Source: Acidobacteriota bacterium (GTDB lineage: Bacteria; Acidobacteriota; Blastocatellia; UBA7656). From it: 64,000 bases of DNA. A program made the translations under genes and the position numbers. The notes below the pieces were generated by a model that ran no database searches, was not told where the DNA came from, and saw nothing but the letters and a program-made list of their open reading frames with translations. The stretch is from positions 326,307 to 390,306 of the forward strand of contig JBFMDH010000003.1 in NCBI GenBank assembly GCA_040754075.1. The letters are read 5' to 3'. Numbering within the stretch: the first letter of the stretch is position 1; the number at the start of each line of letters is the position of its first letter. Below, piece by piece: positions 1,345 to 4,281 of this stretch.

Positions 1345-4281
1345 ATGTTCACTTTAATTGTCGAACTCATCAAACAACTGTTTGAACCAACGCCACAACC
1401 AACGCCGCAACAAACGGTTGCGCCGCGCCCGACGCCAACGCAAAATAACCGCGCCGGATTTCAACAAACGATAACCAATGGGAGAACTGAAATGACGACG
1501 ATGAACAATGCAGAGCGCGATGTGCGTATGGAAATTTTAAACAGTTTGCTCACCACGCCGCACCGTGAACTCGAAAAAGTCGCGGCGCTGCACGATGATA
1601 TGCTGAAGCGTGACCCGATTTTCTACGGTCACCTTGCGGTCTGGTATCAAGCCAACGGTGATGTGCGCGACCACAAAGAGGTGTTCGTTGCCAACTTACT
1701 TACGAGCACGATAGCTGACCACCGCGACGCGGGCTTCGTAATGTTGCAGGAATTTCCGCCTTATGAAGTAGCCCGTGTGGTTGATTTCATGAAGACGCAC
1801 AAAGGCAAAGTGCCGCGTTCAGCGCGCACGGCGGTGACCAAGTATTTGCGCAAACGCGAAAGCGATGCGGCATTCTTCGACCGCGCCGCGCTTCGTGGTC
1901 GCAAAGCCATGAAACACCTCTATGCGACCTTGCACATCAAGCCAAATGAACGCGCCGAACAGGTGTTGTTCAAAGGCGCGCCGCCGGAAGACAGCCTCGC
2001 TTACGCGCTCAAGTTGTTAGCCATTGCCGACACGCCTCTCGCGCAGGCGCAAATCATCGTGGAGAAAAAAATTCCTTACACGATTGCCATCGGCGCGGTA
2101 AAGCAGGTGACGCCAACGGTGCTCGTAGCATTGATTAACGCGATGACGCCGCAAGAGGTCATCAACAATTTGAATTCGCTCAAATCTCGCGGCGCGTTCG
2201 AGAATGGCGAAGTCAAAGCCTTGATTGATGAAAAACTTGCAGAGGCGGCAAAGTCCGACAGAGTTGCGGCGCTCAAGACGCGCGTAGCGGCTGATGCAGC
2301 AGACCTCGATGCCGAAACCGTTGAACGCTTGAACAAGATTGCCGACACGCAGGTAAAGAAGCGCGGCAAAATTTCAAAGCCTACGGCATTGCTGGTTGAC
2401 AAGTGTGTAACCGGAGACACGCTTATTTGCACAGAACATGGGTTGCTCCCTATCTCAAGCCTTGTGCCATCCGTGCAAGATGGGGTTACGGAAATCGGGC
2501 TTGATTTAACCGTGGCAACGCGCAGCAGCATGGCACAAGCCACAAAGCTATTTTTGAACGGCAGGAAACCTGTCCGATATATTGAAACGGAAAAAGGTTT
2601 TCGACTTGGCGCATCATTGAATCACCCGATTCTTTGCTACAACCCGGCAGATGCAAGATTGCTGTGGCGAAAAGCAGAAGCTTTGCAGGCAGGGGATTAT
2701 ATTGCATTGCGACGTAACACACGCTGTTTTGGTGAAGATGTTTCTTTTGCAGATTACAAGCCTAAAGAAGCTTATCAACCAACAGAAGTAAAGTTGCAAG
2801 TGCCACGCCGTATGACTCCTGAATTAGGCAGATGGTTAGGCTATGTGGTTGCTGAAGGACGTATTCACTTCCGTCCCGCTGTAGTTGAGTTCTGCAATAG
2901 CGATGAGCAATTGATGGAAGATTTCTGTAGATTGTCTTTGGAGTTGTTTAGCATAAAGGCAAAAGTGATGGAAAGAAACAATTGCCAAAGCGCTGGTGTG
3001 CAATCAGAAAGCTTAGTTTATTTCTTGTGGGATGCCATTGGCTTGAAGAAAGGTCGGGCAAGAGATTACATCGTTCCACTATCAGTTTTGAGGTCGTCTG
3101 AAAAAACGCAACGCGAATTTTTGCGCGGCTACTTTGCAGGCGATGGCGGACTGATGAATCGCAGAGCAGGCGTTCTTGCGGCTACTTCCACATCCGCGCG
3201 ATTGCTTAGAGAGATTCAAGTGATGTTACTCAACTTTGGCATTGTCAGCCGTCTTAAATCATTTCGTAGTCAAGCCACAAACGGCAGTCGTTTGCTTCGT
3301 TCCTACTGGCGATTAACCATTGGCGGTTCCGATGCGCTGCGATTTGTGAATGAGATTGGCTTTGCATCTATCGCCAAGCAAGAAGAAGTTACGGATGCTG
3401 TAGCTGGCGCTCACACATTAACTTGGTCTGCTCGTTGGGATTCCGTACCGGGCTTGGCGCAAGCTACAATGGATACGCTTGGACGCGGAGCATCTCATCA
3501 ATTGCGACAATTCTTTCCAACCGTAGCTTGCTTTAAAGGTAATGCCAAAAATCATCGCGTTCCCACTGATTTATTGTCATCCATTTTTGCAGCATACCCT
3601 TCGTTCACATCTGTCGGCGATATTGGAGAAATCGCTGATTCCCAGCTTTTCCTGGATGTTGTTGGCAAAATTGAAGAAGGTGAGGAGTCAGTATATGACC
3701 TTTGTGTACCTGACGGACATTCATTCATCAGTAATGGAATTGTCAGCCATAATTCCGGCTCGATGACCGAAGCCATCGAAGTGGGTAAGCAAATTGCTGC
3801 GTTAGTGTCGGGCATTACCGAAGCTGATTTGTTTGTCTATGCGTTTGACAACATCGCTTACCCGATCAAGGCAAAAGGCAACGAGTTGTCGGATTGGGAG
3901 CGCGCTTTTCAAGGCATACTTGCGGCAGGCGCAACCAGTGTCGGTGCGCCGGTTGAAGTGATGCGGCTCAAAAAACAAGCGGTTGAACAATTCATCATCG
4001 TGACGGACGAAGGCGACAACACCGCGCCGCTCTTCCACGATGCTTATGAAGCGTACCGTCGCGATATGCAGCTTGCGCCAAGCGTGTTGATTGTGAAGGT
4101 CGGAAGTTCCAGCACCTACATGGAACACAACCTTCGCGGTCGCAGCGTGCAGTTCGATACGTTCAGCTTTGCGGGCGATTACTATTCATTGCCAAACTTG
4201 ATTCCGATGCTCTCGCGTCCATCAAGACTTGAGCTATTGATGGAAATTCTCGAAACGCCTCTCCCGGAGCGCGTGAGTTAG
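1345..4281 (+). CDS. Ro60/Rsr-like TROVE-vWA protein interrupted by an intein
   Basis: Start ATG 1345 follows CGAAGGAGAAACC. The 978-aa product contains a 450-aa intein (residues 354-803); splicing would leave 528 aa, close to the usual 530-540 aa of Ro60 proteins. Residues about 50-345 form a helical repeat region with a TROVE-like stretch ([20 protein letters not shown]). The C-terminal part is a von Willebrand A domain whose MIDAS motif D-K-S-G-S-M is formed only after splicing. Ro60 is a ring-shaped RNP protein that binds Y RNAs and misfolded RNA and can guide PNPase or other nucleases. The Y RNA-like array just upstream supports the call. An alternative is another vWA/HEAT-repeat protein outside the strict Ro60 family. 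Confidence 0.75.
2404..3753 (+). mobile_element. Intein with LAGLIDADG (DOD) homing endonuclease, in the MIDAS motif
   Basis: This segment encodes residues 354-803 of the precursor. It starts with Cys ([13 protein letters not shown], splicing block A), has a block B-like S-L-N-H at residue 427, and ends with block F/G V-S-H-N followed by extein Ser, the expected +1 nucleophile. Two DOD-type motifs are visible: LGYVVAEG near residue 500 and [10 protein letters not shown] near 594, each with its acidic residue (E and D), so the endonuclease looks intact. The insertion lies between Lys and Ser of the extein D-K-S-G-S-M motif, a conserved metal-binding site, as is typical for inteins. Without splicing the vWA domain cannot form its metal site. 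Confidence 0.93.

Follow-up and report, generated by a model that had tools for sequence, protein, structure and literature searches.

A class-1 intein at the vWA metal site of a predicted divergent bacterial Ro60

Results

Organization of the Ro60 locus

The analysed window is a stretch of 64,000 nucleotides from an Acidobacteriota bacterium (contig JBFMDH010000003.1, positions 326,307 to 390,306 of the forward strand). It opens with a series of Y-RNA-like units, three of which touch the window, followed in the same orientation by a gene for a Ro60-like protein that contains an intein. The features are as follows (block and motif coordinates lie within the intein):

1..109, + strand: Y-RNA-like unit, 3' part; its start lies before the window
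201..348, + strand: Y-RNA-like unit with a 13-bp terminal stem, an AACUUG element and tRNA-like arms (predicted -52.2 kcal/mol)
448..580, + strand: Y-RNA-like unit with a 10-bp terminal stem (predicted -40.3 kcal/mol)
1345..4281, + strand: gene for the 978-aa precursor, a Ro60-like protein with intein (528 aa after splicing)
1345..2403, + strand: N-extein, TROVE-like helical ring and first vWA strand, ending ...PTALLVDK
2404..3753, + strand: intein of 450 aa, class 1, with LAGLIDADG homing endonuclease domain (Pfam, NCBIfam, alignment, model)
2404..2433, + strand: intein block with the C1 nucleophile (alignment)
2614..2625, + strand: intein block B, SLNH, with Ser at the usual Thr position and His74 invariant
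2836..2859, + strand: LAGLIDADG motif P1, LGYVVAEG, catalytic Glu (alignment)
3121..3150, + strand: LAGLIDADG motif P2, catalytic Asp (alignment)
3691..3753, + strand: intein block F and C-terminal block, penultimate His and terminal Asn
3754..4281, + strand: C-extein, SGSM of the MIDAS and the remaining vWA domain; Ser+1 is the first MIDAS serine

The precursor frame is open from the ATG at 1345 to the stop codon at 4279-4281 (978 codons), with no stop or frameshift inside, and an AGGAG ribosome site lies about 7 bases 5' of this ATG. The TTG start at 1297 proposed by the automatic frame call was rejected as mechanical. The contig that carries the gene is 395 kb long, and its genome is rated at 100% completeness and 0.11% contamination.

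A small gene at 633-1223, with no Pfam or NCBIfam match, lies between the Y-RNA-like units and the Ro60 gene, and the closest relative (L020) keeps a short stretch of it upstream of its own Ro60 gene. Just 3' of the Ro60 gene are inverted repeats resembling the Acido-Lenti-1 RNA (4547-4591 and 4409-4453), which score below the gathering threshold. Rfam microRNA matches in the window were rejected as chance matches to inverted repeats. Farther upstream, large tRNA arrays of approximately 20-40 genes were found at L009 (8492-12391, 28 tRNA genes), L206, L207, L209, L210, L219, and L220, while the remaining loci carry 0-11 tRNA genes, with none in four Chloroflexota regions. In all loci examined, the tRNA genes lie only upstream, never downstream, of the Ro60-like gene. 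An HNH-type endonuclease gene, assigned by sequence only, is located between the tRNA array and the Y-RNA-like units (L009 12467-13045).

The insertion is a complete class-1 intein

The intein begins with the C1 codon TGT at 2404 and ends with the last Asn codon AAT at 3753, followed by the Ser+1 codon TCC at 3754-3756. The sequence-only reading had placed it at these coordinates, and the empty junctions of homologous genes fix both boundaries exactly to the base. Alignment with 27 other inteins revealed that C1, His74 in block B, D432 and H439 in block F, H449, and N450 are all present; C1 is common to all compared inteins, and His74 is invariant. In block B, Ser replaces the Thr of the TxxH motif, and the same Ser occurs in PrkA inteins. 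Both LAGLIDADG motifs keep their acidic residues (Glu in P1, Asp in P2), in line with the reading's description of an intact endonuclease, and the loss of catalytic residues that it had named as counter-evidence was not seen in the alignment, in which all essential residues are kept. The insertion thus combines C1, block B, the Asp and His of block F, a terminal His-Asn, Ser+1, and an in-frame position absent from homologues, as defines a class-1 intein.

Profile searches of the intein returned LAGLIDADG_3 (1.2e-19, two stretches) and Intein_splicing (8.6e-13, residues 25-450 of 450) in Pfam, and intein_Cterm (3.8e-7), intein_Nterm (3.6e-4), and GyrA_w_intein (1.4e-27) in NCBIfam. Exteins and intein were modelled as separate structures. 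The AlphaFold2 model of the intein (pLDDT 88.6, pTM 0.91) has intein-endonucleases as its best structural matches, including the TliVMA intein-endonuclease 7qss (E 2.3e-28), while the nearest solved intein by sequence is Mxe GyrA (1am2, 9.8e-15). Together, alignment, profiles, and model confirmed, far beyond chance, that the insertion is a complete class-1 intein.

Comparison with known inteins revealed that the PrkA, PhoH, GyrA, and ribonucleotide reductase (RNR) inteins of Chloroflexota and Acidobacteria share its domain order, length, and catalytic blocks, whereas identity is only about 30%, and none of them shares its host gene and site. The best solved matches by sequence (Mxe GyrA; 1am2, 4oz6) and by fold (TliVMA; 7qss) likewise have other hosts and about 20-30% identity. 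Inteins had been described in the sequence-only reading as mostly a matter of replication and metabolic ATPases, with an RNA-related host being rare. The former view is too narrow; the latter holds insofar as a host from the RNA machinery is uncommon, although not new. Prp8, the core protein of the spliceosome RNP, is a well-known intein host (PMC6805012), and NCBIfam contains an intein-bearing RtcB family (NF038162). These hosts are also core RNA-machinery proteins, but act in the spliceosome or as RNA ligase and are not Ro60.

The host protein is predicted to be a divergent Ro60

The Pfam TROVE model (PF05731) gave no match above its cut-off in 12 family members or in the intein-bearing genome, and the vWA_Ro60 match (3.4e-5) was also below cut-off. 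With a profile of the family, by contrast, TROVE structures were matched (1.3e-4), as was Xenopus Ro60 (0.007). The host fold was judged on a model of the intein-less relative L010 (70% identical, pLDDT 85.7), whose top ten solved matches are all Ro60/TROVE proteins (Z 19.4-22.2, 417-440 residues aligned), covering the Ro60 of Xenopus, human, Deinococcus, and Thermus phage along the full length. The next structural group scores well below and matches the vWA domain alone. Since the family profile finds TROVE structures and the fold matches over its full length, we read the Pfam miss as the limited reach of that model. The sequence-only reading had named the host Ro60-like, and the modelled fold bears this out: it indicates that the host protein is a divergent bacterial Ro60 with a TROVE ring and a vWA domain.

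The solved Ro60/Rsr structures (Deinococcus Rsr 2nvo, Xenopus Ro60 1yvp, and Thermus phage Ro60 9l5y) share the full-length TROVE-vWA fold with the host (Z 19-22) but only about 15% sequence identity, and they differ from it in that the host is missed by the Pfam TROVE model and carries an intein. Family members were also found in viral contigs of 470 and 595 kb (L140 and phage record LR756511.1, 285741-287246), which match along the full length without an intein-sized gap. In another genome of the same family (G161; L030/L032), the Ro60-like gene lies in two frames, perhaps through a frameshift, and its junction is empty.

In almost all blocks of the comparison between the extein and its closest relative, amino-acid changes are fewer than synonymous ones. 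The extein thus shows purifying selection, as expected of a working gene. Most of these changes may predate the insertion, so that the signal is not strict proof of function afterwards.

The intein splits the MIDAS

The intein splits LLVD-K^S-G-S-M (^ marks the junction here and below) between K303 and S304. The MIDAS of the host is complete and follows the vWA pattern of DxSxS, then Thr, then Asp (D302, S304, S306, T364, and D388); these residues, together with K303 and M307, are invariant in 12 homologues. The sequence-only reading had the insertion parting D-K from S-G-S-M and concluded that metal binding depends on splicing. Both points agree with the alignment: because the invariant residues are parted, the unspliced protein is not expected to have a normal MIDAS. 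The splicing nucleophile Ser+1 is S304, the first metal-ligating serine of the MIDAS.

Related inteins, among them those of PrkA, PhoH, GyrA, and RNR, have junctions that mostly consist of K followed by S, T, or C in active-site loops, as in PhoH (GTGK^S/T), SMC (GCGK^S), MutS-type proteins (GPNMSGK^ST), PrkA (DPK^S and MLK^C), and some RNR sites. A metal-binding extein Ser that doubles as the +1 splicing residue is also found for intein i1 of mycobacterial DnaB (PMC6195587); that intein, however, is a class-3 mini-intein lacking an endonuclease and its host a P-loop ATPase, whereas the Ro60 intein belongs to class 1 and sits in a vWA MIDAS. Where the divergent Ro60 clade has DKS, a Val precedes the Ser in the solved bacterial TROVE protein (DVS). 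A Val at -1 is usually unfavourable for splicing, and an intein may therefore have been able to use this site owing to the invariant Lys of the clade.

Distribution and origin of the intein

A search for empty and filled Ro60 sites, as the sequence-only reading had proposed, yielded at least 34 distinct empty homologous junctions, all contiguous (DK^SxSM), and one filled junction. The empty junctions come from Acidobacteria, Cyanobacteria, Chloroflexota, and viral contigs, and the closest empty gene, 83-84% identical and from the same family, has a clean site. No other filled Ro60 gene was found among the genomes of the class that have the gene, the sampled Chloroflexota and Cyanobacteria, viral contigs, phages, and plasmids. 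Canonical TROVE genes, four of which were found in 273 genomes of the phylum to which L017/G517 belongs, have intein-free frames of 546-608 aa. When 396 genomes of the phylum were searched by pattern for inteins that end at any SGSM MIDAS, the Ro60 intein was the sole match; 251 Chloroflexota genomes and the viral contigs gave no match. Only common forms of the motifs fit the pattern, so this absence is not proof. No report of an intein in a Ro60 or TROVE protein was found in the open-access literature. In the samples searched, no other intein was found in this host protein or at this insertion site, although the intein type is ordinary.

The GC3 of the intein is 0.40, compared with 0.61-0.62 in the exteins. 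GC3 tends to fall below that of the host gene in the genome's other inteins as well, and a low value is therefore only a weak sign of recent arrival. The recency proposed in the earlier reading gains support from composition taken together with the single filled junction against at least 34 empty ones.

The nearest inteins are those of Chloroflexota PrkA, at 31-33% identity. In the intein tree, where intein clades and host genes correspond almost perfectly, the Ro60 intein lies on a long branch (1.43), weakly beside the Chloroflexota PrkA inteins (support 92/82). Each relative found in the class or in Chloroflexota has its own host gene and shares about 30% identity with the Ro60 intein. Several candidate donors were rejected: Chloroflexota PrkA inteins, which are the best by identity, yet weakly placed in the tree; phage and plasmid inteins of RecA, helicase, and terminase, which reach at most about 28% identity; and the genome's other inteins as sources of ectopic homing, whose identity is at most 34% over part and 31% over the whole of their length, which does not fit a recent copy. 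Because even the nearest relatives are only about 30% identical, the donor appears to be unsampled, and sequence comparison identifies the Ro60 intein as a new allele from such a source.

The genome itself is rich in inteins, with others in RNR (three), PrkA, SpoVR, SMC, and DnaB. The PrkA and SpoVR genes are neighbours, each with an intein (G000:C42:15700-21455; L003, L006, and L008), and the ribonucleotide reductase gene is a 2180-codon frame with its three inteins (G000:C27:50841-55022; L002 and L005).

Y-RNA-like units upstream of the Ro60 gene

In each unit, the 5' strand (..GCGCCCyGAC..GCTTACATAC) pairs with the 3' strand (..GCYTTTCNAACTTGCGC..) as a terminal stem and a second helix. A conserved ACUUG element is present, and the middle varies, often taking the form of a tRNA-like module with its parts in permuted order (T arm, closed acceptor stem, and D arm). 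In the intein-bearing genome, seven 3' elements of such units lie at L009 13631-14874 (units within L009 13491-14887), where two of the seven spans reported by the automatic scan bridge neighbouring units. Such units precede the Ro60 gene in most examined loci, including those of Acidobacteria, Cyanobacteria, and Chloroflexota (L206, L208, L210-L221, L223, and L225), compared with 2 in 0.92 Mb of control DNA. Because units were selected on the terminal stem, part of its pairing follows from the selection. No such selection was applied to the second helix, where positions one to five are paired in 94-100% of the 49 units, against means of 78-100% after shuffling, and compensatory changes occur. 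The Rfam YrlA model gave matches of 3e-6 to 5e-2 at related loci, all below the gathering score. The units adjoin the host gene, recalling known Ro60/Rsr systems with their Y RNA (YrlA, RF02553), and are probably the Y RNAs of the divergent Ro60.

Discussion

Proposed mechanism and alternative explanations

We consider it highly probable that the locus encodes a divergent Ro60 interrupted by a recently arrived, mobile, and selfish class-1 intein that removes itself constitutively at a conserved K^S codon pair. We infer that the intein splices, that its endonuclease cuts, and that splicing is constitutive. After translation, an acyl shift at C1 would open the reaction, followed by transesterification to Ser+1 and cyclisation of the terminal Asn, aided by the penultimate His; a final acyl shift would then join DK to SGSM. 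Ser+1 would serve first as the splicing nucleophile and afterwards as a metal ligand of the MIDAS, so that the metal site would form only in the spliced protein. The LAGLIDADG homing endonuclease would have kept the element at, or brought it to, the invariant codon pair. Since no second Ro60-type gene was detected in the genome, the host would depend on splicing, and constitutive splicing would be expected of an element that is recent and essentially selfish.

The intein could instead act as a conditional switch, with slow or condition-dependent splicing (redox, divalent metal, or temperature) through which stress alters the amount of MIDAS-competent Ro60. The intein has nine cysteines, including C1, C78 (four residues past the catalytic block-B His), and C434 in block F; in mycobacterial DnaB, where one P-loop Ser binds Mg and also acts as the splicing nucleophile, an internal disulphide inhibits the intein (PMC6195587), and Ro60 systems have been tied to damage responses (PMC7790460). 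The known redox trap between Cys(-3) and Cys1 is, however, ruled out by the sequence, since extein residue -3 is Val and this disulphide cannot form, although other disulphides could. Moreover, the occurrence of the element in a single genome argues against long-term domestication, and the endonuclease motifs have not decayed, which fits an invasive intein better than a domesticated one. The analysis lends no support to the switch by stress or redox state that the sequence-only reading had put forward, and we regard such a switch as unlikely. A related possibility is a post-translational gate on the Ro60-Y RNA particle, in which the precursor would bind RNA without a MIDAS until a redox or divalent-metal signal releases splicing and creates the metal site, and this we judge distinctly unlikely.

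The carriage of the element by only one strain, and the Ser in place of Thr in block B, might also be expected of a splicing-dead insertion that leaves Ro60 a pseudogene in this strain. However, PrkA inteins have this Ser too, none of the essential residues is missing, and the frame runs unbroken through 978 codons, which makes this explanation very improbable. That the composition of the intein differs from that of the exteins could point to an assembly chimera or a misread boundary, with the intein belonging to another gene or organism. Such an error is hardly credible given that the insertion is in frame, with exact boundaries at a junction contiguous in all homologues, on a 395-kb contig of a complete and nearly uncontaminated genome whose other inteins also differ from their hosts in GC3.

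Significance

With a divergent Ro60 carrying a recent, selfish intein as the favoured reading, Ro60 and a vWA metal site join the list of intein insertion points. That inteins insert into invariant codons of active sites is a rule that can be tested cleanly here, with one Ser acting as both metal ligand and splicing nucleophile. The precursor is expected to lack the MIDAS and nothing else, and would therefore offer a natural means of probing the role of the MIDAS in Ro60. Of possibly greater importance is the setting of the intein: several phyla contain a Ro60 family that escapes standard models and is preceded by covarying Y-RNA-like units and, in many cases, by large tRNA arrays.
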